Assembly (NCBI GenBank): GCA_015180985.1
Contig: CP054185.1
Span: forward strand, 3,161,225 to 3,225,224
From: Flammeovirgaceae bacterium
GTDB lineage: Bacteria; Bacteroidota; Bacteroidia; Cytophagales; Cyclobacteriaceae
Direction of reading: 5' to 3'
DNA length: 64,000 nt
Under the pieces are notes generated by a model. It saw nothing but the letters and a program-made list of their open reading frames with translations. It had not been told where the DNA came from and searched no databases. Both the position numbers and the translations under genes were made by a program. Below are positions 24,674 through 51,607 of the stretch, piece after piece; the first letter of the stretch is position 1; each line of letters starts with the position of its first letter.

Positions 24674-25962
24674 GAGTTTACGCAACCCTATTTGCACTTA
24701 TTACGCTCACCACCTGCAATAACCTGGAAGACGCTGAACCTTCGGAGCGCGCAACGTTTATGAAGGTGTTCAACGGCATCCAGGGCATTGAGGCTGCGGC
24801 TGCCGAACTTACTCCGGACGGTTTTATTGTGGTAGGCAATATGACCATTGCCCGGGACTCGGTGGTTACCGTGGTGTTTAAAACCGACAAACGGGGAAAC
24901 CGCATCGGCAATATGCACTATTACCAGGGCGGGTCGGGAAACGCCATTAAAGCCTTACCGAATGGCAACGGTTACCTGGTTGTTGGCGAGAAGATTAAAA
25001 CAGACCCGAACGCCACACCAACCGACAACATTGATATCGTTTCGGCCCGCATGCTGCACATCAGTAACGATTTGGATAGCATCAAAACAATTTACCTGAA
25101 CGATGGTACTGCCAATACCGTTAAAACAGATTACCGGGCGGTATCGCTTACCGTAACTCCGGCAGGAAAGGTGGTTGTTCTGGGTACCTACCAAACCTCA
25201 ATTACGGCACCTGAACGGCCGTACCTACAACGATATAATGCCGACCTCTCAACCATAGAGTGGTACGAAGAATTTGCCTCCATCAACCGGAGTTACCGGA
25301 ACGCCAAGTCCCTACACTTTATAAACGGCAACTACATTTGGGCAAGCGCAGTAGCGCAGGAACAACAAAATTTCGATTTTTCTTATGTTAGTGTACCCTT
25401 TGTACAGGAGGGCTCAGTATTTGTTAACTACAGTTTACTCGGAGAAACAACATCTCAATCGTTAAGACCAAATGATATCCAGCCAGCAAAGTCCGTAGCC
25501 TTCGGCTATGGCATTACCGGTACCAGGGCAAGCACGAATGGCTCAGGCGCTAATGTCTTCTTTGCGCGAACCGATGCGTCAGGTAATATTATTCCGGCCA
25601 CGGTAAAGTTTTTTGACGCTATACTTTCGGAGCAAACAGGCGCCATCGGAGAAACAAATTCAGAAATACAGGATTATGGAACTGCTATTACCGGCACCAG
25701 CGATGGCACTTTTGTGATAGCCGGCCATTTTGTTACCAACCCGCAAAAAGGAAACGGTGCAAATGATTTGGTGCTGATTAAAACAGATATCAACGGCAAC
25801 ATGCGCTGGATGAAATCTCTGGGCGGCACAGGCAGCGAAACAGTAAGTACCATCTGCGAAACAGAAGACCAGGGTTTGCTGATTTGCGGAACAAACCTAG
25901 TGGGGAGCGTACCCTCCATTTTTTTGATTAAAACGGATAAAAACGGTGAACTGAAGAACTGA
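24670..25962 (+). CDS. Predicted lipoprotein with delta-60-like propeller repeats
   Basis: 430 residues. N-terminal MRVYATLFALITLTTCNNLED carries a signal sequence ending in a lipobox-like TTC (Cys16). The body has repeated units of the type LTPDGFIVVGN...VFKTDKRGN, DGTFVIAGHF...LVLIKTDINGN, EDQGLLICGTNL...IFLIKTDKNGE, a blade pattern seen in delta-60/secreted propeller proteins. Coupled on both sides: ATGA overlap with the barrel gene upstream and TGATG overlap with the giant gene downstream. Probably anchored in the outer membrane and acting with its neighbours at the cell surface. Confidence 0.8.
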   Translation: MRVYATLFALITLTTCNNLEDAEPSERATFMKVFNGIQGIEAAAAELTPDGFIVVGNMTIARDSVVTVVFKTDKRGNRIGNMHYYQGGSGNAIKALPNGNGYLVVGEKIKTDPNATPTDNIDIVSARMLHISNDLDSIKTIYLNDGTANTVKTDYRAVSLTVTPAGKVVVLGTYQTSITAPERPYLQRYNADLSTIEWYEEFASINRSYRNAKSLHFINGNYIWASAVAQEQQNFDFSYVSVPFVQEGSVFVNYSLLGETTSQSLRPNDIQPAKSVAFGYGITGTRASTNGSGANVFFARTDASGNIIPATVKFFDAILSEQTGAIGETNSEIQDYGTAITGTSDGTFVIAGHFVTNPQKGNGANDLVLIKTDINGNMRWMKSLGGTGSETVSTICETEDQGLLICGTNLVGSVPSIFLIKTDKNGELKN

Positions 25963-28900
25963 TGAATATGAATACGTACAAGTATCTTTTTCTTAAATTA
26001 TTATTTTTGTTATTAAGTATATCCTTTTCACCGGCATTCTCACAGGTTTCCGGTGGGTCATTCACAGCTACAACATGTGCCGATGGCGATGTTACGTGGA
26101 CAAATCCGGGAACAATAAACACCATTTTAATTTTTGCAAAGGCAGGTTCGGCCATTACCGTTGGCACTCCAACGAGTAATGAATCTAGTTATACAGCAAG
26201 TACAACATTCGGCAGTGGGACAGTCTATCAAAATGATCCTGAGGCATTTTGTATTTACAAATCATCAACATCAGGCACCTCTGTTTCAATAACCAATCTA
26301 ACCCCTGGAACGACCTATCATTTTCTTGCATACAATGTAAACGGTACAACATACTCTGCTCCCCATACTTTCAGCGGGGGGCCTACCTCCACTCTGGCTA
26401 ATGCCTCATCGGTACAAACAATTTCGGATAACAATCAGGTTACCTTAAACTGGACAAATCCAACCTGTTTTGATGAGGTTATGGTTATTGCAAAGCCAAC
26501 AACAACTATTGCCGGAACACCAACGGGCGATGGAAGTGCATATACTGCAGATGCTGATTTTGGGGGTAGCGGAACGAGTTTTGATGTAACCGGTAAAGTG
26601 GTGTATAAAAACAATGGAACTTCTGTTTCTGTAACTGGCCTAACCAATGGAACAACTTACTTTTTTAGAATTTTTACTCGCAAAGGAACTACATGGTCAA
26701 ATGGTGTTGAAGTCAGTGCGATTCCATTTGCACCAGCATCCGGAGGTTCATTTTCCCAAGCATGTTTAAATACCGGTACTCCAATTTGGACAAATCCAGG
26801 TACAGTCGGCACAATTGTAGTCTTTGCAAAATCTGGATCAGCAATTACCGTTGGAACTCCAACAAGTAATATCTCAACGTATACAAATAATGCTGCATTT
26901 GGTTCCGGGACGCCTTATCAACACGATGCAAATGCATATTGTATTTATAAAGGAACGGGAACTTCCATTAATATTACAGCACTTAGCCCAGGTACAACTT
27001 ATCATTTTCTGGTATTTAATGCTAACGGAACGTCCTATTCGCCAGCTCATACATTTAGTGGTAACACGCTTACAACACCCCCAAATGTTACAGGCTTGGC
27101 AGGTAGTCCATCCGCTAACTCTGTTTCATTATCATGGACTAACCCAGCATGCTTTGACGAAGTACTGATGGTTGCCAAAACTTCAACAATTTCCGGGACT
27201 CCTACCGGAGATGGCTCAGGCTATACGGCCGAATCAGATTTTAGTGGTGCCGGAACAATCTTTGATACGTCAGGAAAAGTGGTTTACAAGGGCTCTGGTA
27301 ATTCCGTAAATGTTACAGGCCTTTCAATCAGCACTACATACTTTTTTAAGGTCTTTACTCGGAAAGGAACCACTTGGTCAGCCGGGATTGAAATCAGTAC
27401 AACTACCATTTGTACGCCTACCAATGCAACAGGCTTGACCATCAGTGACACAAATACAACCGGTACTATTGGCTGGACCAACCCCGCCTGTCTTGATGAA
27501 GTAATGATAGTAGTTAAACAGGGTTCAGCTGTAACAGGTACACCCACTGGAGATGGCACAGCATATACTGCAAATTTGGACTTTACCAGTGGTTCAAGTT
27601 CTGTTTTTGACGGGGGCAAGGTGGTTTACAAAGGAAGTACAAGCACACAAACAGTAACAAACCTGACAGCAGGTAATGTATATTACTTTACGATATTTAC
27701 CCGGAAAGGAACCTTGTGGTCATCCGGTATTTCAATCAGTACAGCAACTGGTCCCCCATTGGTAACTGGATTTAATCCAGTTGATAATTCAACAGGTATT
27801 CCGACCGACCAAGTTTTCACAATTACGTTTAATGAAGATGTGTTTATTTCATCGGCTGCATTTACAGGATCAAATAACCTAATTGAATTTGATAAATCCG
27901 GATCAGGCGACCTTGTCGTTAACCGGGATGGGTCAGGTCCCGATGGCTCAATAAGTATTGTTGGCAATGTGGCTACAATAACCCTCTCCACACAACTTGA
28001 AGTAAACACAGCTTATAATATACTTATTGGAAACAGGGTTTTCAGAGACGGTTCAACAAATCATTATACCGGAACAACTGCAGGGAACTGGAATTTCACA
28101 ACAACATCCGGTGTAACAATTACAGCGCCTGTAGTAGGTACATGCCTTGGACAATTTTCAACATTAGGAGACATTGTAATTGCTGAGGTAAATAACAACA
28201 ACCTCCAGGGTACAAATAGTGGAACCTTAACATTGGTACTAGGATTCGATAAAACTGGTTACGTGTTCAATCCTAGTGTTTCCGGTGTAACTGCTACCTT
28301 TAGTCCAGGTGGTGACATCCAGGCAATAACAGTTACATCCATTACCTTTACACAGGCTACTTTTTCCATTCAATTTGATGCATCTGCCCGAAATGAAACG
28401 GATATAATAACTATTTCAGGACTAAAGGTTTCGCGTGACGGATCAATGGCTCCACCGGCCATCGTTGTTGTTAAACCAACCTCTACCCTGAGCATCCAGG
28501 GCATCTCACCGGATATAACCACGTTAGCAACAATTAATGGCGGCACTGCACCATCTGCACCAACAGTTGTTTACCCTGCCGGAGATAATTCCTATTGTGT
28601 GAACGATAATTTCTCAAGCATCTCAATATCAGCTACCGATCCAGACCCTGCCCCTGAAACGTTCAATTGGTATAATGACGCAGCACTGACTTCAGTCAAT
28701 GCTATTAACGCAAGCTCAAGAACGGTTGCGCAATTAATAGGTGCCAGTCCATCACCAGGTACCTATATACGATACGTTACCCAGGTTGATGGATGCGAAA
28801 GTGTGGCTTCTACTGTAACTATTATAATTACTTCATTGCCTGTTGCAAATGCAGGGCCTAATTTAACAGGTGTAAATGCCGTTTGCTCTGGCAGCAGTGT

Positions 28901-31900
28901 TACGTTAGGAGGTTCGCCAACGGCATCGGGAGGTTCTGGTTCCTACTCATATACTTGGACAGGTCCTGGCTCACCAGCTTCGACTGCCAACCCGGTTCAC
29001 ACCATGCCTGACCCCGGGGCAACCGATCAAACGTATAACTACCAGATTATTGTAACTGATGGCAATAATTGCTCCTCAACGCCTTCCATTAAGCAAATTA
29101 CGGTAAAGAATTTATCTCAAAATGTAACTATCGACCAACCTACCACCTACTTTTTTACCGTTAATAGTAACCCTGTTGAACTCGTTGGAAACCCGCCTGG
29201 AGGTGTTTTCTCTGGTGTGGGTGTAACACAACTTAGCGGCACCTATCAGTTCGATCCAGAACTGGCTGGTGTAAATACCTCTCCTGGCTGGCCAGTAACG
29301 TACACAGCCACCCTTTCGAACGGATGCACTAAAAGTGTGGTTCAGAATTTTGAAGTAGCCAATGCCTATGATGTTTTTCCTAACCTCGAAGTACAGTATT
29401 GTAACAATGAAGGTTCCGTGCTCCTGGAGATCTCGCCTGCCATTATCACCGAAATTCAAAATTTTATAAATACCTGGAATACAGTTTATGTACCAAATTA
29501 TGGTTACTCGCCCCTTAAGTCTACTATTTCAGGAATCATCCGTAATGAATATGCTACTTACTATGGGCAAAATAATGGCGTTCAAAAGGTGCCGGGAACC
29601 TATACTGTAGGCGGATGGACACTTGACAACTATCGATTCTATCCATCCCAGTTCCTTACCGACCAAGCCTATCCGCCTGGTGGCGGAATCTATGGAACTT
29701 GCCCTACTTGCACATACGCTTTTATTTCTGTTTTCGTTGAGTTTGCCAATCCACTGGCAACTGCACCATATAATATGCCGATTGGTTCTGATTTCGGTTG
29801 GCGATTTAATAATGGTTCTGTTGCTGCCTTTTCATTTAACGGTGAATTTGTAAATATTAATCCTGTACCAATAGTAAGTTTTGCAGGACTTAATACCAGC
29901 TACTGTAATATTAATACAAATTTTACCTTAACCGGAAATAAACCAGGCGGATCATTTGAAATCAGTAATGACCCGTATAACGAAAACCCTTCTACTTTTG
30001 GGGATGTTGTAGGTGACGGTATTAAAGATGTAACCGAAGGAATTGCTCCGGGTTTAGGTGAATTTAATCCGCAAGAAGCCTTTGAAGGAGCTGCTTCAGC
30101 AGTTACAAAATGGATACGATATTCAGTTGACCCAGGTACGGTGGGTTCGGATGGCGTAACCGGTTGTGTGGGAAGGCAAATCAGAGGAACCACCATTTAT
30201 CCATCCGATCCGGTTGTATTCCGGTCAATTGTACCACCCAACAATACCGAATTTTGTTACGAAGGAGCGAGTATTAATATTACCATGGGATTTACAGCAG
30301 GAGGTCCGGCTATTACCAGCGGAATTTCATACAGCGGTTACGGAATATCGGACAGCGGAAATGGTGTTGGGGTATTCACACCTAAAACTGCGTTCGACCA
30401 ACAAGCCCCCGGAGCAACAACGCCACAAACCATAGTTATCACCGCCAACTACACAAATGCCCAGGGTTGTGTTTACTCAATAAACCGTAGTTACATTGTA
30501 CGACCAAAGCCTGCACTTACAGTAACGGTAACTGATGTCTCAACGAACAATCCACCTCCCGACAATAATTTCTGTTATAATGACGCTGACCTGACTGTAC
30601 TTGGGAATCAGCCACCCAGCAGCACCTATAAGTATGAAATTGAATACCTGACTTTGGGTTATGTACAAACTATAAATTCACACACTTTCACATTTGATCC
30701 AAGTTTTTACTTTGACGATGCTGTAACACGAGGAGCAAGCAACACCAGTGACGCAACTTTTAGAGTTACCTACATTGTAACAGACGCAGTCATTGGGTGT
30801 ACTGCCTCTACATCATTCATTTTTGCCGTCTCTCCGTTAGCTGAGATCACAATCAGCGGAATAAATGACGGGGACATTTTCTGTTCTAATGTCCAACCTT
30901 TCCCAATTACATTTGCCCCTATAAATGGTGTACTGCGAATCAATGGTGCCCCCACTCCATTAAATCCAGTAACAAGCAGTATCAGTTCAGTTCAACTTCC
31001 TGTAAATGACAACGTAACGATAAGTTATGAATATTTCTCAGGGGTCTCCCAGTGTGTTACTACTAAAACCTATACAATCAGCCAGGTAGATGCTCCAAAG
31101 GCAACATTTTCAACTACTCCGATTTGTGATGGCGATCCTGCCACTTATACAGCCGGACCTGATCCTGATAACCATTCGTGGAAATGGGTCCTTGGTGATT
31201 CCATACGATCAGGAACAACCACTGAAACAATTAACCATGTTTTTCCAGGTCTTGCAGGAGCTACTCAAACTTCTTATCTAATACGACTCATTGTAACAAA
31301 TGGTCCCAGTGCTCTTAAAGTTTGTCGTGATAGTACTGAGGCCATTCAGGTAATTGGAGCTTATCCTCGCGTAGACTTTGACTATTCTAATGTTTGTAAA
31401 AACGATTTCACTAAATTCTCCATTAGTTCCAATATACCAATTGCGTCCGCTCAATGGAATTTTGGCGATGGTTTTACCTTACCGAACAATCCATTAAACA
31501 ACAGTATTCCCGGTGGAACACATGGTGGGCAAACTACTGCAACATACGGAGCACCTGAACATCGCTATTCTACGGCCAACAACCGTTACCTGGTAAGTTT
31601 AATCGGACGTACTGCAACAAATGTTGGTGCATGCCCCGACACTATACAACACCAAGTTGGAATTCTTGAAAAACTAAAGCCGAATATTACCTATCCCTAT
31701 AAAATGGATTCTATTCCGGGAGGTTTATGGATTGAAGAAGATCGTTCCAACACATCAACATGGTCATTCGCTGCACTAACAGGTAAAACAGTGATGACCA
31801 ATACTATAGGTAATGTCTGGATAACTAATCCTTCTGGAAATTACAGAGAGTCTGACAATTCTTATGTCAACAGCCCTTGTTTTGACCTATCGGCATTTAC

Positions 31901-33212
31901 TAAACCTGTATTTTCCATGCAATATTGGGCCAACACCGATCCGGGTAAAGACGGTGCATTACTACAATCTTCGATTGATGGAGGCGCAACCTGGCAAGTA
32001 GTTGGAACTACAACCTCAGGGATCAACTGGTATGAAAACCAAACAATCTCTTCAGCTCCTGGCGGTTTTAATCAATACGGATGGACAGGAAGAACACAAC
32101 AGGATTGGCTGACAGCAAAAAACTCTATTGATGTATTGGCCGGCAACAACAACGTACGTTTTAGAATTGCTTTTTCAAGCGATGAGCGTGATGAATTTGA
32201 TGGCTTTGCCTTCAATGATGTTATCATTGAAGAACGTAACCGGATAATGCTGGTTGAACATTTCAGCAATAGTGATGTCGACAATCCGCTTATTCCGGCA
32301 AGTAATAATAATTACAATTCTCATTTACCTCTAAATGATGCTGAGGTTGTTAAAGTTCAATACCATGCTAGCTTTCCCGATGCCGATGCTATAAATGCGG
32401 CCAACCCTTCCGATCATAATGCCCGAATAGCTTATTACGGGGTAACAAATCAAACCATTCCAATCGGTTTCATAGATGGCGCACGCGATCTTACTGCCCC
32501 ATTTGGATTTGCTTTACCTGCTAATCCTAATAATGGATGGTGGAACGATTTTAAACTAAAGCGATCACTAACTTCCTCACCTTATTCACTTTCAGTTAAA
32601 ACACTTCCACTGCTTGGATCAGATACCTTAAGAGTAAATGTTGTTTTTTCAAAAATAGGTACTGTTCTAGGGAACAAAGCCACTTTGCTCGTTGCCGTAG
32701 TTGAAAAGAATGTTTCAGGAAACCAGCATGTACTACGCAAATTTTTACCTTCACCTGCCGGTACACTGATTGACCAGATCACTTCAGACTCTCTTGTGTT
32801 TGATTGGCGACCGGTTGACATTACTAACCTAAATAATATCGCCATTGTTGCCTTTATTCAGGATATGACCACCAAAGAAGTTCATCAGGCAACAATTGAC
32901 ATTGCGCCAACCTTCATACCCAGTGGAGTGATCACCGCCATCGAAGATGCGGCCTTTGCCGAAAAAATTGAGTTGTACCCTAACCCGGCCAGCCATGAAC
33001 TGAACATTCTGCTGCCCGAACCGGCACGCTCAACTACACCGTTTGTGCTGATGGATGCCCACGGCCGCAGTCTGGTTGAACAACAGTTTTCAGCCGGCCA
33101 GCAGATGAAAACCATCAACACCAGCCAACTGGCTGCTGGCCTGTACATTCTGCAGATTAAATCGCAACAGGGCACGGCACGGAAGAAAGTGATGATTGTG
33201 CACGGCCGGTAG
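25962..33212 (+). CDS. Giant T9SS-exported surface protein, 2416 aa
   Basis: Signal peptide (MNMNTYKYLFLKLLFLLLSISFSPAFSQ) and C-terminal type A sorting domain (IELYPNPASHELNILLPE, LAAGLYILQIKS, KKVMIV), so export by the T9SS is expected. In order: five fibronectin-III-like modules of two kinds (about 30-600), a Big_5/SbsA Ig-like domain (about 605-720), beta domains, PKD-like domains (about 965-1045, 1710-1790, 1800-1910, the last with AQWNFGDGFTLP), a MAM/jelly-roll-like region (about 1930-2090), an Omp28/thioredoxin-like region (about 2095-2320: IMLVEHFSNSD, IGFIDGARDL), and the sorting domain (about 2325-2416). The start overlaps the stop of the lipoprotein gene (TGATG). The body is AT-richer than neighbours while the sorting-domain DNA returns to genome-like GC. 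Likely an adhesin or matrix protein; ligand unknown. Confidence 0.9.
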   Translation: MNMNTYKYLFLKLLFLLLSISFSPAFSQVSGGSFTATTCADGDVTWTNPGTINTILIFAKAGSAITVGTPTSNESSYTASTTFGSGTVYQNDPEAFCIYKSSTSGTSVSITNLTPGTTYHFLAYNVNGTTYSAPHTFSGGPTSTLANASSVQTISDNNQVTLNWTNPTCFDEVMVIAKPTTTIAGTPTGDGSAYTADADFGGSGTSFDVTGKVVYKNNGTSVSVTGLTNGTTYFFRIFTRKGTTWSNGVEVSAIPFAPASGGSFSQACLNTGTPIWTNPGTVGTIVVFAKSGSAITVGTPTSNISTYTNNAAFGSGTPYQHDANAYCIYKGTGTSINITALSPGTTYHFLVFNANGTSYSPAHTFSGNTLTTPPNVTGLAGSPSANSVSLSWTNPACFDEVLMVAKTSTISGTPTGDGSGYTAESDFSGAGTIFDTSGKVVYKGSGNSVNVTGLSISTTYFFKVFTRKGTTWSAGIEISTTTICTPTNATGLTISDTNTTGTIGWTNPACLDEVMIVVKQGSAVTGTPTGDGTAYTANLDFTSGSSSVFDGGKVVYKGSTSTQTVTNLTAGNVYYFTIFTRKGTLWSSGISISTATGPPLVTGFNPVDNSTGIPTDQVFTITFNEDVFISSAAFTGSNNLIEFDKSGSGDLVVNRDGSGPDGSISIVGNVATITLSTQLEVNTAYNILIGNRVFRDGSTNHYTGTTAGNWNFTTTSGVTITAPVVGTCLGQFSTLGDIVIAEVNNNNLQGTNSGTLTLVLGFDKTGYVFNPSVSGVTATFSPGGDIQAITVTSITFTQATFSIQFDASARNETDIITISGLKVSRDGSMAPPAIVVVKPTSTLSIQGISPDITTLATINGGTAPSAPTVVYPAGDNSYCVNDNFSSISISATDPDPAPETFNWYNDAALTSVNAINASSRTVAQLIGASPSPGTYIRYVTQVDGCESVASTVTIIITSLPVANAGPNLTGVNAVCSGSSVTLGGSPTASGGSGSYSYTWTGPGSPASTANPVHTMPDPGATDQTYNYQIIVTDGNNCSSTPSIKQITVKNLSQNVTIDQPTTYFFTVNSNPVELVGNPPGGVFSGVGVTQLSGTYQFDPELAGVNTSPGWPVTYTATLSNGCTKSVVQNFEVANAYDVFPNLEVQYCNNEGSVLLEISPAIITEIQNFINTWNTVYVPNYGYSPLKSTISGIIRNEYATYYGQNNGVQKVPGTYTVGGWTLDNYRFYPSQFLTDQAYPPGGGIYGTCPTCTYAFISVFVEFANPLATAPYNMPIGSDFGWRFNNGSVAAFSFNGEFVNINPVPIVSFAGLNTSYCNINTNFTLTGNKPGGSFEISNDPYNENPSTFGDVVGDGIKDVTEGIAPGLGEFNPQEAFEGAASAVTKWIRYSVDPGTVGSDGVTGCVGRQIRGTTIYPSDPVVFRSIVPPNNTEFCYEGASINITMGFTAGGPAITSGISYSGYGISDSGNGVGVFTPKTAFDQQAPGATTPQTIVITANYTNAQGCVYSINRSYIVRPKPALTVTVTDVSTNNPPPDNNFCYNDADLTVLGNQPPSSTYKYEIEYLTLGYVQTINSHTFTFDPSFYFDDAVTRGASNTSDATFRVTYIVTDAVIGCTASTSFIFAVSPLAEITISGINDGDIFCSNVQPFPITFAPINGVLRINGAPTPLNPVTSSISSVQLPVNDNVTISYEYFSGVSQCVTTKTYTISQVDAPKATFSTTPICDGDPATYTAGPDPDNHSWKWVLGDSIRSGTTTETINHVFPGLAGATQTSYLIRLIVTNGPSALKVCRDSTEAIQVIGAYPRVDFDYSNVCKNDFTKFSISSNIPIASAQWNFGDGFTLPNNPLNNSIPGGTHGGQTTATYGAPEHRYSTANNRYLVSLIGRTATNVGACPDTIQHQVGILEKLKPNITYPYKMDSIPGGLWIEEDRSNTSTWSFAALTGKTVMTNTIGNVWITNPSGNYRESDNSYVNSPCFDLSAFTKPVFSMQYWANTDPGKDGALLQSSIDGGATWQVVGTTTSGINWYENQTISSAPGGFNQYGWTGRTQQDWLTAKNSIDVLAGNNNVRFRIAFSSDERDEFDGFAFNDVIIEERNRIMLVEHFSNSDVDNPLIPASNNNYNSHLPLNDAEVVKVQYHASFPDADAINAANPSDHNARIAYYGVTNQTIPIGFIDGARDLTAPFGFALPANPNNGWWNDFKLKRSLTSSPYSLSVKTLPLLGSDTLRVNVVFSKIGTVLGNKATLLVAVVEKNVSGNQHVLRKFLPSPAGTLIDQITSDSLVFDWRPVDITNLNNIAIVAFIQDMTTKEVHQATIDIAPTFIPSGVITAIEDAAFAEKIELYPNPASHELNILLPEPARSTTPFVLMDAHGRSLVEQQFSAGQQMKTINTSQLAAGLYILQIKSQQGTARKKVMIVHGR
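26050..27760 (+). repeat. Tandem module repeats in the giant surface gene
   Basis: Five modules of about 330 bases in the order A-B-A-B-B. A modules contain AITVGTPTSN and GTTYHFL; B modules contain GTPTGDGSAYTA, GKVVYK and FTRKGT. Proteins are highly alike between copies but codons differ, so the duplications are not very recent. Confidence 0.85.
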
Positions 33213-33326: not shown

Positions 33327-34490
33327 ATGATAGCCAGAATGGCGGAAAATGAGGTTTTAGAATTGCTGAGCACTTTCCCGGTGGTAGGCCTGGTAGGCCC
33401 GCGGCAGGTAGGCAAAACCACCCTTGCACATCAGGTAACTGGCCGGATGAATCGGGAAGTGGTTTACCTCGACCTGGAGCTACCCGAAGATATTGCTAAA
33501 CTGCAACAGCCTGCCCTATACCTTAAAGAACATACCGATAAATGCGTTGTGTTGGACGAAATTCAGCGAATGCCCGAACTGTTTCCGGTATTACGCTCCC
33601 TTATTGACCAGAACCGCATCCCCGGGCGATTCATCATCCTGGGTTCCGCTACTCCCAATTTACTCATCAACAGTTCTGAATCCTTTGCCGGGAGAATTGC
33701 CTACAAAGAATTGATGCCGCTAAGCCTGTCAGAAATAAACCACACAACTACTTTGGAGAAACATTGGCTACAGGGTGGCTTTCCCGATTCGCTGTTAGCG
33801 GCCAACAGCCAGGCCAGTTTCAGGTGGCGAAGAAACTTTATCCAGACATACCTTGAAAAGGATTTACCCTTACTCGGCTTACAAACTAACCTGAACCGGC
33901 TCCGTGAGTTTGTTACCATGCTGGCCTCAGCCCAGGCACAGTTATGGAAAGCTGAAGCTTTTGCCAGAGCCCTGGGAGTAACAGCACCGGTCATTAAGCG
34001 TTACCTGCATTACCTTGAGAACGCATTTCTGGTTGAAGTACTTCAGCCTTACTATGTTAATATAAAAAAACGGTTGGTCAAATCTCCGAAAGTGTACATC
34101 CGCGATACCGGCTTACTTCATACCTTATTGCGAATTGAGACTTTCGAAGAACTCCAGAATCAGGTTGCTATTGGCCAATCCTGGGAAACCTATGTGATCA
34201 GTCAGGTAAAATGCCAACTTCCGGATAATTGGTCCATGTATTTTTACCGCACGCACGAAGGTGCCGAAGCAGATCTTGTGCTGGTAAAAGGTACCCAACC
34301 CGCAGCATGCTTGGAAATAAAGTACTCCAATGCACCCATGGTCAGCAAGGGTTTACACCATGTAATTGCTGACCTGAAAACAGATAAGAACTTCATTATT
34401 ACACCATCCTCTGAAAAATACCCGGTCGCCCAGAAAATTCAGGTCGTAAATATTCAGGATTTCCTCTCCATTCTTAACGGATGGAAATAA
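33327..34490 (+). CDS. AAA_14 ATPase with DUF4143 domain
   Basis: 387 residues. N-terminal P-loop ATPase: GLVGPRQVGKTTLA (Walker A, about residues 22-31) and CVVLDEIQRMPELF (Walker B), followed by the sensor-like FIILGSATPNLL. The C-terminal DUF4143 half includes RDTGLLHTLL and a restriction-endonuclease-like end (YFYRTHEGAEADLVL, then CLEIKYSNAP) with the E/D...ExK pattern seen in this family. These ATPases are abundant and patchily distributed in Bacteroidota, often as isolated, horizontally moving genes. Here it sits alone between the giant gene and terC, with palindromes at its 5' end. Biological role unknown. Confidence 0.88.
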   Translation: MIARMAENEVLELLSTFPVVGLVGPRQVGKTTLAHQVTGRMNREVVYLDLELPEDIAKLQQPALYLKEHTDKCVVLDEIQRMPELFPVLRSLIDQNRIPGRFIILGSATPNLLINSSESFAGRIAYKELMPLSLSEINHTTTLEKHWLQGGFPDSLLAANSQASFRWRRNFIQTYLEKDLPLLGLQTNLNRLREFVTMLASAQAQLWKAEAFARALGVTAPVIKRYLHYLENAFLVEVLQPYYVNIKKRLVKSPKVYIRDTGLLHTLLRIETFEELQNQVAIGQSWETYVISQVKCQLPDNWSMYFYRTHEGAEADLVLVKGTQPAACLEIKYSNAPMVSKGLHHVIADLKTDKNFIITPSSEKYPVAQKIQVVNIQDFLSILNGWK

Positions 34491-34595: not shown

Positions 34596-35411
34596 ATGGA
34601 AATCTTTCTCCATGCCGAAACCTGGCTGGCTCTGCTAACGCTTACCTTTTTTGAGGTTGTTCTCGGCATTGACAACATCATTTTTATTTCCATCATCTCC
34701 AACCGGCTGCCGGTTGAAATACGCGCCCGCACCCGCAACATGGGCCTGATGCTGGCCATGATTGTACGTATTGTGCTGCTGCTGGGCATCACCTGGGTTA
34801 TTACCTTTACCGAACCGCTCTTTACCGTAGGCGATATTATGCCGGCATTCCTGCACAAATACGTTAACATTGAACACGGGTTCAGCGGTCGCGACCTGAT
34901 ACTTGGTTTTGGCGGATTATTTCTGATAGCTAAAAGTACCCGCGAGATAAACCACGAAATGGAAGGTGAAGACGAAGTAATCAATGTAGGAAAAGCCAAA
35001 GTAAACGTTACCGGAATCATCATCCAGATAATTCTCATCGACATTATCTTTTCCTTCGATTCAATCCTCACAGCCGTTGGTTTAACCAACCAGGTGCTTA
35101 TCATGATCTTCGCTGTAATCATATCCATTGGTATTATGATGGTTTTCTCAGGCAAAATAAGCGACTTCATCAACCGCCACCCTTCCATGGAGGTGCTTGC
35201 CCTCGGCTTTTTGATTCTTATCGGCTTTATGTTATTCCTTGAAGGATTAGAGTACGAAATCCCGAAAGGGTACATCTACTTTGCCGTGGCCTTTTCACTG
35301 CTGATTGAAATGGTGAACATACGGGTACGCGGACGAAGGGATAAGAAACGCAAGAAGGAAGAAGAGGAAGAAAAAATGGCTGCTGCCGATCAGTCGGCCG
35401 TTCAGCCTTAA
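34596..35411 (+). CDS. TerC/Alx-family integral membrane protein
   Basis: 271 residues, about seven transmembrane helices. Conserved acidic intramembrane motifs of the TerC family are present: TFFEVVLGIDNIIFISII in helix 1 region and IILIDIIFSFDSILTAVGLT in the second half, with the Asp residues expected for divalent-metal (manganese) export. The C-terminus is a charged Arg/Lys/Glu tail (about 245-271). Family members export Mn(II) and are linked to tellurite resistance or metalation of exported proteins. Four bases separate its stop from the next gene, suggesting an operon. Confidence 0.9.
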   Translation: MEIFLHAETWLALLTLTFFEVVLGIDNIIFISIISNRLPVEIRARTRNMGLMLAMIVRIVLLLGITWVITFTEPLFTVGDIMPAFLHKYVNIEHGFSGRDLILGFGGLFLIAKSTREINHEMEGEDEVINVGKAKVNVTGIIIQIILIDIIFSFDSILTAVGLTNQVLIMIFAVIISIGIMMVFSGKISDFINRHPSMEVLALGFLILIGFMLFLEGLEYEIPKGYIYFAVAFSLLIEMVNIRVRGRRDKKRKKEEEEEKMAAADQSAVQP

Positions 35412-35415
35412 AAAA

Positions 35416-35943
35416 ATGCCCGCTTCATCGCACCAATACCCCATCGGAAAATTTGAACCCAGGGAAACCTATACGCCTCAGGAAATTACTGCCTTTCTGC
35501 TGAATATTAAATTATTACCTTCTAAGATTGAAGCTCTGTATCGGCAATTTAAACCCGCGCAACTTGACCTGACTTACCGTGAAGATGGATGGACAGCCCG
35601 ACAGATTATTCATCACCTGGCCGACAGCCACATGAACGCTTACATCCGTACCAAGTGGACGCTAACAGAAGACACACCCTTGATTAAAGCCTATGATGAA
35701 AAAAACTGGGCTAAAACACCGGATGTTCAAACCGACCCGGTTGTTTCCATTGAACTGCTCCATGTACTCCATAAGAAGTGGGTCAGCTTGTTGCGCACAC
35801 TCAAACCATCCGACCTCGAACGAAGTTTTATCCATCCGGAAACAAAAAAGCACATCCGACTGGATCGCCTCATAGCTTTATACGCATGGCATGGCGAACA
35901 CCATTTGGCGCATCTTGCATTGATTTTAGATCGAAGATTGTAG
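35416..35943 (+). CDS. DinB/YfiT-like putative metal-dependent hydrolase or thiol transferase
   Basis: 175 residues with the DinB four-helix fold. The three metal-binding histidines of the YfiT/BstA group are visible: HHLADSHMN (first helix pair) and AWHGEHHLAHL near the C-terminus; GWTARQIIHH is the characteristic strand-helix entry. Bacillithiol S-transferase activity is known for relatives; Bacteroidota members are usually annotated this way. It starts 4 bp after terC. Its last codons (LDRRL and stop) run into the left arm of the S23 element, so its native C-terminus may have been altered by that insertion. Confidence 0.85.
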   Translation: MPASSHQYPIGKFEPRETYTPQEITAFLLNIKLLPSKIEALYRQFKPAQLDLTYREDGWTARQIIHHLADSHMNAYIRTKWTLTEDTPLIKAYDEKNWAKTPDVQTDPVVSIELLHVLHKKWVSLLRTLKPSDLERSFIHPETKKHIRLDRLIALYAWHGEHHLAHLALILDRRL

Positions 35944-36338
35944 ATTTTAGATTTTAGATTGATGAATTCAGGGATTCTGAAACAGCGCACCAAACGTTTT
36001 GCACTTGATGTAACTGAATTTTGCATGGATTTAAAACCTACATTGTCAATTTTAGCTTATTCAAAGCAACTAATACGAAGTTCCAGTTCGGTAGGTGCCA
36101 ATTACCGGGCTGCCTGTCGTGCAAAATCACGCGCTGACTTTATTAACAAATTGAAAATTGTGGAAGAAGAGGCAGATGAATCGATCTACTTTATTGAGCT
36201 AATCATAGAACTTGAGCCGGATTCGAAAACGAAAGGTGAGATGCTACTGAAAGAAGGTAATGAATTACTTGCCATCATCGTAGCTTCAATCAACACATCA
36301 CGTAAGCAAAAGGGATAACACAATCTAAAATCTACAAT
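35937..36338 (+). mobile_element. IVS-like element: S23 gene between inverted repeats
   Basis: ATTGTAGATTTTAGATT (35937-35953) is perfectly inverted at 36322-36338, enclosing only the four-helix-bundle gene. The left arm contains an extra TAGATTTT unit. The left arm contains the stop codon of the DinB gene and the right arm touches the TTG start of the hydrolase gene, as if inserted into a tight operon junction. 23S rRNA intervening sequences are likewise stem-bounded and can encode S23 proteins. Mobility is an inference. Confidence 0.5.
35962..36318 (+). CDS. S23 / four-helix-bundle protein (23S rRNA IVS-type)
   Basis: 118 residues from ATG 35962 (a TTG one codon earlier is less likely). 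Matches the four-helix-bundle family first found in 23S rRNA intervening sequences: RTKRFALDVTEFCMDL, then the hallmark YSKQLIRSSSSVGANYRAAC and KSRADFINKLKIVEEEADESIYFIELI. The fold is shared with bAvd, an accessory protein of diversity-generating retroelements, which binds nucleic acid and reverse transcriptase, but no reverse transcriptase is seen here. Function outside rRNA is unknown. Flanked at once by inverted repeats (see the element entry). Confidence 0.9.
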   Translation: MNSGILKQRTKRFALDVTEFCMDLKPTLSILAYSKQLIRSSSSVGANYRAACRAKSRADFINKLKIVEEEADESIYFIELIIELEPDSKTKGEMLLKEGNELLAIIVASINTSRKQKG

Positions 36339-37276
36339 TGAATTACTCACCCCCCATCTTCCTCTTTAACGGTCACCTGGAAACCATCTACCCGGCCTTG
36401 CTCCGAAAAGTAACCTTGCAGCCTTACCACCGCGAACGGATTACCACACCCGACAATGACTTTCTGGATTTGGACTGGCTGAAACAGGGTTCGGAAAAGC
36501 TGGTCATTATTTCACATGGGCTGGAAGGGAATACCCACCGGGCCTACATAAAAGGAATGGCCCGCGCCCTTTTTCTCAATGGCTTTGATGTTTTAGCCTG
36601 GAACTACCGCGGCTGCAGCGAAGAAATGAACCGCCAACTTCGGTTTTACCACAGCGGGGCCACCGATGACCTGGCTGTAGTAATCAATCATGCAGTTAAA
36701 CAACAGTACAAAGCAATAAACCTGGTGGGCTTTAGTCTGGGCGGAAACCTGACCCTGAAATACCTGGGTGAACCCCGCAAGCACCCGGATGTACTCAGGA
36801 AAGCCATCGTATTCTCCGTACCGTTAGACCTGCACACCAGTTGCCTGAAGATATCGCAACCTTCCAACTGGATTTATGCCAACCGTTTCCTGGTAAGCCT
36901 GAAAGAAAAGGTACAACGCAAAGCCAGGATGATGCCGGAACTGGATAGTAAAGGATTAGGAAAAATAAAAAGCCTGATGGAATTTGATGACGTTATTACG
37001 GGGCCGCTCCATGGATTCAGCAATGCACTCGACTACTATGCGCAATGCAGTTCAATAAAATTTGTAAACGGTATCAACCACCCTGTGCTTATTATTAACG
37101 CAAAGAATGATCCCTTTTTAAGTAAGGAGTGTTATCCGGTTAATGAATTAGAGCATCATAGTAAGGTTAAATTTATCGCCCCGCAACGCGGAGGGCACGT
37201 GGGCTTCGCAGAATTTAATTCAAATGGCTTATATTGGAGCGAACGGCAAGCCATTGCCTTTTTAACACATGATTGA
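36338..37276 (+). CDS. YheT-family alpha/beta hydrolase, TTG start
   Basis: 312 residues. NGHLETIYPALLRKV at the start, GLEGNTHRAYIKGMARAL, the nucleophile elbow GFSLGGN (Ser near residue 132), the acid in INAKNDPFLS and the late His in RGGHVGF complete the YheT/ABHD-type hydrolase pattern. The substrate is unknown; relatives are esterases or lipases. No ATG is available in frame near the start: translation must begin at TTG 36338, whose first base is the last base of the right inverted repeat of the S23 element, suggesting that the original start was displaced. Overlaps the next gene by 8 bases. Confidence 0.87.
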   Translation: MNYSPPIFLFNGHLETIYPALLRKVTLQPYHRERITTPDNDFLDLDWLKQGSEKLVIISHGLEGNTHRAYIKGMARALFLNGFDVLAWNYRGCSEEMNRQLRFYHSGATDDLAVVINHAVKQQYKAINLVGFSLGGNLTLKYLGEPRKHPDVLRKAIVFSVPLDLHTSCLKISQPSNWIYANRFLVSLKEKVQRKARMMPELDSKGLGKIKSLMEFDDVITGPLHGFSNALDYYAQCSSIKFVNGINHPVLIINAKNDPFLSKECYPVNELEHHSKVKFIAPQRGGHVGFAEFNSNGLYWSERQAIAFLTHD

Positions 37277-37964
37277 ACGCTATAGCATATCCGTACAGGC
37301 AGCTGACCTCCGCCAACGATTTGCTGCCGATGTACCCGATTTTTACAAACCCCGTTACAATGCCGGCCCAACCCAGCTCTTGCCGGTAATAACAAATACT
37401 TCGCCTCAGGGACTCTCGGTGTTCTATTGGGGCCGGCCGCCCAAAGCCGCAGGCAACAAACCCCTGAGCGAACGCATCATAAATCTGAAACTCGAAAACC
37501 TGCTTGACAAACCGGTATTGCAAAAGGCTTTGTTTAAAACCCGGTGCATCATACCGGCCGATGGTTTCTATGCCTGGAGAAAAATTGGCAAGAAATCCAT
37601 TGTGCCTCACCGGTTTGTAACTGATCAACCGCTTTTCTCCATGGCCGGATTTTGGGAGGAATTTGAAGATGAAGATGGGAGCATGCTCCATACCTTTACC
37701 CTCATTACAACGGCAGCCAACAAACTGGTAGCAGCCGTTACCGACCGGATGCCGGTTATCCTTACGCCCGAAAGTGAAAAAATCTGGTTAAGCAGAGAGG
37801 CCGGTGAAATTGTTTTACTAAGCCAGCTGGCAACCTACCCGGCTGACGCCATGAATCATTATACCGTGTCACCGCGTATTCTTGACAGCCGCATTGATGC
37901 GCCCTCCTTGATTATTCCCACACCTCCGGCCGACCAGCACGGAAACTTAACTTTGTTTGATTAG
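37269..37964 (+). CDS. SRAP/HMCES-fold protein lacking the catalytic residues
   Basis: 231 residues with the whole SRAP fold (RYNAGPTQLLPVI, RCIIPADGFYAW, TFTLITTAAN, TDRMPVIL, SPRILDSRIDAPSLI). SRAP proteins cap abasic sites in single-stranded DNA through Cys2. Here the start reads MIERYS rather than MCGR, so Cys2 is Ile; the Glu of GFYEW is Ala102; the His of IHDRMP is Thr158. Only Asn72 of the known active-site set remains. No alternative start can restore MCG: an in-frame stop lies one codon upstream (37263-37265). It looks like a coherent pseudoenzyme or a new activity rather than decay, since the frame is intact. Overlaps the hydrolase gene by 8 bases. Confidence 0.88.
   Translation: MIERYSISVQAADLRQRFAADVPDFYKPRYNAGPTQLLPVITNTSPQGLSVFYWGRPPKAAGNKPLSERIINLKLENLLDKPVLQKALFKTRCIIPADGFYAWRKIGKKSIVPHRFVTDQPLFSMAGFWEEFEDEDGSMLHTFTLITTAANKLVAAVTDRMPVILTPESEKIWLSREAGEIVLLSQLATYPADAMNHYTVSPRILDSRIDAPSLIIPTPPADQHGNLTLFD

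Positions 37965-51564: not shown

Positions 51565-51607
<43 letters not shown>

Follow-up and report, generated by a model that had tools for sequence, protein, structure and literature searches.

An S23 four-helix-bundle gene between inverted heptamer arrays at a Bacteroidota operon junction: probably a member of a widespread class of mobile cassettes

An S23 four-helix-bundle gene lies inside a perfect inverted repeat, between two protein-coding genes of an operon, in the 64,000-nucleotide stretch of Flammeovirgaceae bacterium DNA analysed here (the window; contig CP054185.1, assembly GCA_015180985.1). What is such a gene, with such ends, doing outside rRNA? A reading made from the sequence alone likened the locus to the intervening sequences (IVSs) of 23S rRNA and proposed an autonomous mini-element that had landed in an operon junction and displaced the ends of the native genes. 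Based on comparisons with S23 loci in 17 congeneric genomes, across the phylum and on plasmids, we consider it probable (roughly 0.6) that the locus belongs to a widespread class of mobile cassettes, each consisting of a sense-oriented S23 gene between inverted heptamer arrays at an operon junction. Below, G000 denotes the window's genome, other G numbers the remaining genus genomes, and L numbers individual loci.

The inverted repeat proved real (17/17 nt, with 368 nt between the arms; Table 1), and the 13-mer core of its arms occurred three times in the window, always at the S23 locus, and in 0 of 100 shuffles. The S23 gene, for which the ORF listing starts at TTG 35959 and which is annotated here from the ATG, scored above the curated cut-offs of both of its profiles (PF05635, 50 bits against 33.8; TIGR02436, 75.9 bits against 24) and was the sole coding sequence between the arms, as the sequence-only reading had it. 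That reading also placed the arms correctly with respect to the neighbouring genes: the stop TAG (35941–35943) of the DinB-superfamily gene is part of the left arm, and the right arm ends on position 36338, where the TTG start of the hydrolase begins. The last codons of the DinB-superfamily gene likewise fall within the left heptamer array. Its 17-nt left arm stands as a repeat and is corrected in extent, being the visible part of a longer, degenerate 7-nt tandem array, whose reverse-complement counterpart follows the S23 gene. A separate periodicity scan delimited this left array at 35918–35972, with its best inverted partner downstream. The product of the DinB-superfamily gene reached 215.9 bits against the model for YfiT bacillithiol transferases, whose cut-off is 160, and the hydrolase matched PRK10985 at 222.7 bits, under the cut-off of 267. 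No Rfam family scored above its gathering score at 35300–37400. Near the other nine S23 genes of G000 (∼1.5 kb), the window's exact 10-mers recurred at L008 alone, ∼1 kb from its S23 gene.

Table 1. Features of the S23 locus in the window and operon junctions occupied by S23 genes in the genus.
Feature	Coordinates	Strand	Basis
Upstream operon gene, DinB-superfamily, YfiT-type bacillithiol transferase	35416..35943	+	profile match
Left array, degenerate 7-nt repeats, GATTGTA/GATTTTA type, 5.7 copies	35922..35961	+	Tandem Repeats Finder
Left arm of the perfect 17-nt inverted repeat	35937..35953	+	repeat search
S23 / four-helix-bundle gene, 118 aa from ATG, computed pI 8.9	35962..36318	+	profiles
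Right arm, reverse complement of the left arm	36322..36338	-	repeat search
Downstream operon gene, YheT-like alpha/beta hydrolase	36338..37276	+	profile match
S23 junctions (genus): mraY/murD, cysD/cysN, metH/metF, sufB/sufC, ftsW/murG			neighbour profiles
S23 junctions (genus): murE/mraY, two metH parts, hisB/hisH, 3-oxoacid CoA-transferase A/B, FadB-like/thiolase			neighbour profiles
S23 junctions (genus): thiolase/acyl-CoA dehydrogenase, two ABC-3 permeases, mraZ/mraW, murD/ftsW, others			neighbour profiles

Elsewhere in the window, an AAA_14/DUF4143 ATPase gene (33327–34490) lies directly upstream of the operon, a 2416-aa ORF with repeated segments (25962–33212) looks by eye like a large surface or secreted protein, and a perfect AGT trinucleotide run of 14 copies occupies 51566–51607.

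Within the genus, TIGR02436 gave 92 matches, in 17/17 genomes. These were taken as 91 loci, of which 87 were analysed after four with an unresolved frame or a contig edge (L126, L061, L057 and L022) had been dropped; start codons were chosen by script (that of L120 is probably internal), and the loci include orthologues, so that the counts are not independent. Inverted arms, defined by an inverted-repeat score of at least 12 within 150-nt flanks, were found at 52 of the 87 S23 loci versus 2 of 313 control ORFs, drawn from 20 stretches that each span 20 kb, and at 0 of the 103 controls of 80–200 aa. This result speaks for a mobile cassette, and the 35 genus loci that scored below 12 speak against it; in G000 itself, with a wider search, 4 of 10 S23 loci reached 12 and 6 fell below. 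Identity at lag 7 was 0.396 in upstream and 0.360 in downstream flanks of S23 genes, compared with 0.273 and 0.272, respectively, for controls; lag 14 gave a further peak. G exceeded C in the upstream flank and C exceeded G in the downstream flank, and the repeat unit itself varied between loci. Membership of the locus in a large family of S23 elements with inverted ends outside rRNA, surmised from the sequence alone, is supported.

S23 ran in sense between two co-directional genes at 80 of the 87 genus loci and opposite to both neighbours at none, whereas the same routine applied to control genes returned 132 of 262 and 31, respectively. Site groups were wholly co-directional in 26 of 31 cases; group F is a further case, with one member lacking a downstream ORF in view. 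The junctions listed in Table 1 carry neighbour names taken from best profile matches, a few of them below the model's own cut-off. L047 and L048 share both neighbours with site D (FadB-like/thiolase), L068 and L069 belong to murD/ftsW, and L117 to mraY/murD. In the division and cell-wall cluster, S23 genes stand at mraZ/mraW, murE/mraY, mraY/murD, murD/ftsW and ftsW/murG (L006, L009, L117, L068 and L065, respectively); three of these five junctions are occupied in the window's own genome.

Beyond the genus, a TIGR02436 match was present in 153 of 198 sampled phylum genomes. Among the 30 top-scoring phylum loci, 17 had inverted arms and 27 were co-directional with both neighbours; for the best 80 of 512 named loci of the window's subfamily, nearly all from Bacteroidota by record title, the numbers were 57 and 69, both sets being best-scoring rather than random samples. 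One S23 query matched 30 plasmid records, mostly cyanobacterial, and 13 of these loci, a non-random choice from 10 genera and all cyanobacterial, were read. Eleven had inverted arms, one (L359) had direct arrays and one (L360) scored 11.5; together with two further S23 genes in the plasmid control stretches (scores 34.5 and 28), inverted arms flanked 13 of 15 cyanobacterial plasmid S23 genes versus 4 of 110 control ORFs. Ten of the 13 were co-directional with their neighbours and three (L360, L361 and L365) opposite to both; these three, like the direct arrays of L359, count against the cassette as defined above. Carriage by phages was rejected, one S23 query having 0 matches in 50,697 phage records. 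On sequence comparison, then, both the anatomy and its association with S23 genes and Bacteroidota operon junctions recur well outside the window, and the arrangement is also carried by cyanobacterial plasmids.

Two features of the plasmid loci are recorded here in their own right. The Pseudanabaena locus L359 has near-perfect 7-nt arrays that are direct and not inverted (lag-7 identity 0.92 and 0.90). Cyanobacterial S23 genes also stand within CRISPR operons, twice as cas6/S23/cas4 and once as cas10/S23/cmr3 (L359, L364 and L369); the association may be positional. A 2023 figure legend on CRISPR systems includes 23S rRNA IVP among its domain abbreviations (PMC10910872).

The nearest known parallel is the 23S rRNA IVS, which in Coxiella likewise holds an S23 ORF between inverted repeats, measures ∼0.4 kb and lies in a transcribed unit (PMC4990558). 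This shared plan is one ground for regarding the window locus as an RNA element of the same type, whose arms would pair in the polycistronic mRNA and whose S23 segment RNase III would excise. The sense orientation of S23 agrees with this, and the arms do pair in both the minimum-free-energy and the centroid structure of the window RNA, at a fold z of only -1.65. An RNA stem under selection, however, would show more G-U than A-C mismatches. Among 918 arm mismatches in 130 elements there were 150 G-U and 186 A-C (genus 71 vs 69, phylum 21 vs 40, named loci 58 vs 77), and this lack of a G-U excess argues against an IVS-type stem and for ends that act at the level of DNA. We therefore rejected the arms as an RNA stem, and an IVS-type element, which fares best among the alternatives, appears unlikely. 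Of the likeness to the IVS drawn from the sequence alone, the inverted repeats around an S23 ORF survive and the stem does not; nor is the locus in a 23S gene. The cassettes, unlike the IVSs, occupy junctions in protein-gene operons, here between a YfiT/DinB-like gene and a hydrolase gene. The two also differ in selection: the Coxiella ORF is called reductively evolving (PMC4990558), whereas S23 of the cassettes is under purifying selection (dN/dS 0.02–0.19 in the 20 of 22 pairs with computable dS; the pair of the window S23 and L029 is one of two pairs without).

RNA pairing alone would also not demand arms with a heptamer specific to an S23 subfamily, and arms of this kind were found. Sites were defined by shared neighbours, with 21 multi-member sites entering the tests. 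For different-site pairs, the similarity of left arms was 7.2–7.3 below 40% S23 identity, 10.4 at 60–75% (29 pairs) and 16.7 at 75% or above (5 pairs, each of which includes L100). In a comparison of pairs without a shared neighbour, arm similarity climbed with S23 identity; below 70% identity the climb was small for loci not belonging to the window's subfamily. When one locus was drawn per site, the mean r of 0.27 was reached by 0 of 200 × 50 permutations. Within sites of the genus, own arms fit better than swapped ones (sum 1013.5 vs a permuted mean of 923.2, reached in 0 of 5000); the same test on named loci was weaker (77 of 5000), with own and swapped arms fitting about equally at most named sites, which counts against a mobile cassette. 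The motif T[AT][AC]GA-NN-T[AT][AC]GA, composed after inspection of the same loci on which it was counted, was present in one arm or the other at 67 of the 84 loci that belong to the window's subfamily versus 13 of 109 other S23 loci, and in both arms at 31 versus 1. At least one member carried it in 15 of 20 neighbour clusters. The eight genus loci of the subfamily had it in the left arm in six cases and in the right arm in none, again a point against the cassette. Four of the 80 named loci (L247, L268, L275 and L278) were left out of the motif, cluster, swap and G-U tests and of the comparison of pairs without a shared neighbour. Inversion of the gene between its arms was rejected, none of the tabulated pairs with shared neighbours being flagged as flipped.

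Could S23 instead be an auto-regulated host gene, flanked by operator repeats, that descends vertically and is frequently lost? Most genus copies do occupy fixed sites shared between species and are conserved, which favours such a gene; the shared fixed sites also count against a mobile cassette. A tree of the 87 S23 proteins, built on few columns and with long branches, groups them mostly by site. However, unrelated S23 lineages occupy the same junction: at least three separate ones at thiolase/acyl-CoA dehydrogenase (site A), and two each at FadB-like/thiolase (site D) and cysD/cysN (site I). L079, L100, L117 and L002, in turn, cluster in the tree with S23 proteins of other sites, and their heptamers resemble, by eye, those of these relatives; at cysD/cysN, L079 combines the S23 of another site's clade with, by eye, that clade's heptamers. 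L079, L100 and L117 do not share a site with the S23 genes closest to them but do, by eye, share heptamers with these, and L117 is alone at its junction among genomes in which both flanks were found; a non-mobile host gene is therefore quite improbable. S23 and arm type keep company at unrelated sites, which supports the sequence-only reading of a cassette with inverted ends of its own.

Empty sites were found for two sister copies. The flanks of L117 (mraY/murD, G012) abut without S23 in 10 of the 11 other genomes that the query covered, five congeners lying outside it; the eleventh, G006, returned one flank only. In G002 and G009, mraY and murD overlap as ATGA, and the interval between flank matches is 485 nt in G012 vs 15 nt in G002, the insert supplying a new stop codon. 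For L079 (cysD/cysN) the corresponding intervals are 517 nt in G012 vs 3 nt in G002; G001 and G011 have about 20 nt at the site, G005 has other DNA, and the flank query had no match in G006 and G014. At the same junction, G003 and G007 hold an internally deleted S23 of another type between its own arms, and in G009 a segment similar to the right arm is present, so that the L079 site may reflect either gain or loss, a point against the mobile reading. No target-site duplication was seen by eye at the two junctions. As judged from these flank alignments, L079 and L117, sister copies of the window's element type, show the polymorphic presence with empty sites that is looked for in a mobile element. 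Two further junctions were read: of the metH/metF junctions covered, those of G000, G003, G005, G011 and G014 were short and those of G015 and G016 had other repeats, as had most of the sufB/sufC junctions covered.

At the window's own site, the hydrolase gene was found in G000 as well as in 15 of the 16 congeners, and dinB adjoins it in 12 of those 15, no dinB match preceding it in L018, L021 and L032. Of the 12 dinB/hydrolase junctions, L029 has a complete S23 gene, L022 one that a different insert interrupts, and L023 a fragment; by eye, heptamer-like repeats without S23 remain in L020, L024, L026, L028 and L030, a partial array or small hairpin is kept in L019, L025 and L031, and L027 is the only repeat-free junction. 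This distribution suggests an old insertion followed by repeated losses rather than a recent landing. The operon-junction location inferred from the sequence alone is upheld; a recent landing at this site is not. The displaced hydrolase start of that reading has to be given up, because the same TTG is seen in relatives without S23, e.g. L019 and L027. In L022 (G010), the insert that breaks S23, at about 1058–1501, has an inverted repeat of its own, of the GTCATTGCGAGG type.

Heptamer arrays also occur without S23. Heptamers typical of a single S23 clade turn up at other places in the congeners, and 9 of 20 such places had an inverted repeat of at least 14 around a short loop; these would be S23-less derivatives of the cassette. 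The S23-free heptamer hairpins (L319–L338) are scattered in congeners, some apparently beside tRNA genes, to judge from the sequence, and are MITE-like. Strong 7-nt arrays numbered 10 per 400 kb in the control stretches versus 0 in the same DNA shuffled. Such S23-free arrays weigh against a mobile cassette and are what would be expected if arrays grew by slippage in intergenic DNA and S23 were there by chance, a view also consistent with a paper on Beggiatoaceae heptamers whose text, in the part covered, has 0 occurrences of 'S23' or 'four helix' (PMC4679880). Slippage, on the other hand, predicts neither reverse-complement arrays on both sides of one family, which the controls of similar length lacked altogether, nor heptamers that track the S23 subfamily, and we disfavour S23 as a chance passenger as very unlikely.

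Inverted DNA arms with a sequence that depends on the S23 subfamily are what one would expect if a protein recognised the ends, and we infer that S23 itself is the natural candidate for the heptamer-binding protein. S23 is often basic (median pI 8.9; pI above 8 in 133 of 189), and its solved sequence relatives 2rld and 2gsc were deposited with five chains each, which we take to fit a pentamer. S23 cassettes are not known to use a recombinase, nor S23 to have a catalytic function, so that the autonomy proposed from the sequence alone is conjectural. A reverse transcriptase (RVT_1, PF00078; 3/17 genus genomes, none in G000) and a Y1 transposase (PF01797; 13/17) were considered as the general mover and rejected as too rare or patchy relative to S23 (17/17). 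The same scarcity of RVT_1, and its absence from the window's genome, leaves hardly any room for S23 as a reverse-transcriptase accessory, despite the resemblance of PF05635 to Avd of diversity-generating retroelements (PMC10053308).

If the locus is a mobile cassette, the heptamers would be its ends, to which the S23 protein encoded by the same cassette would bind in DNA form, and protein and ends would co-diverge because each S23 recognises its own. By borrowing the transcription of the operon to express S23, the cassette would come to lie in sense; the sense bias may reflect this need for host transcription or insertion via RNA. Internal deletion of S23 would leave heptamer hairpins behind, and the strand-transfer chemistry could be supplied by the host. 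A broader proposal can be put forward only tentatively, as one that could well prove wrong: that S23 proteins are sequence-specific end-binders of new, tiny mobile elements with no known transposase, each lineage co-diverging with its own heptamer; that the dispersed Bacteroidota arrays and the cyanobacterial STRR repeats are ends, deleted copies and relics of such elements; and that the 23S IVSs are a branch that landed in rRNA.

STRR repeats were reportedly described by Mazel and colleagues, with a 7-nt unit. Like the cassette arrays they are short tandem intergenic units capable of forming hairpins, as remarked for cyanobacteria (PMC2670836). They have been known as anonymous repeats, whereas units that look like STRR (e.g. 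TAGGGAG and GGGAACA) here bracket S23 genes in inverted orientation, the likeness to named classes being one of appearance alone. TAACTGA heptamers are intergenic in Beggiatoaceae, cyanobacteria and Bacteroidetes, often directly before start codons, and the author considers a heptamer-binding protein as a possible mobile element (PMC4679880). In that account they are direct repeats, with one inverted set in the main genome, whereas the cassette arrays are inverted. The S23-less hairpins and internally deleted copies look like the non-autonomous derivatives known as MITEs (PMC10969869); unlike MITEs they have no known parent transposase, and the parent would be the S23 cassette. Compared with the 23S IVS, finally, the cassettes differ in having arms that are 7-nt arrays following the S23 subfamily and that lack the G-U signature of an RNA stem. 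In the open full-text literature, with most subscription-journal papers outside the scope, no title, abstract opening or passage covered links inverted heptamers to S23 genes located outside rRNA, and the parts covered of four pertinent texts (PMC10910872, PMC5088731, PMC2670836 and PMC8700078) do not link them either; an earlier description may nevertheless exist.

These results provide a very common and anonymous Bacteroidota family, the one matched in over three-quarters of the sampled genomes, with an anatomy and with a function that can be tested. They also offer a possible origin for the heptamer repeats that Bacteroidota and cyanobacteria carry and that the literature covered, partly in excerpt, does not explain in any settled way. 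Lastly, an S23 gene found inside a CRISPR, cell-wall, methionine, histidine, sulfate or iron-sulfur operon may be a cassette and not a functional partner of the genes around it.
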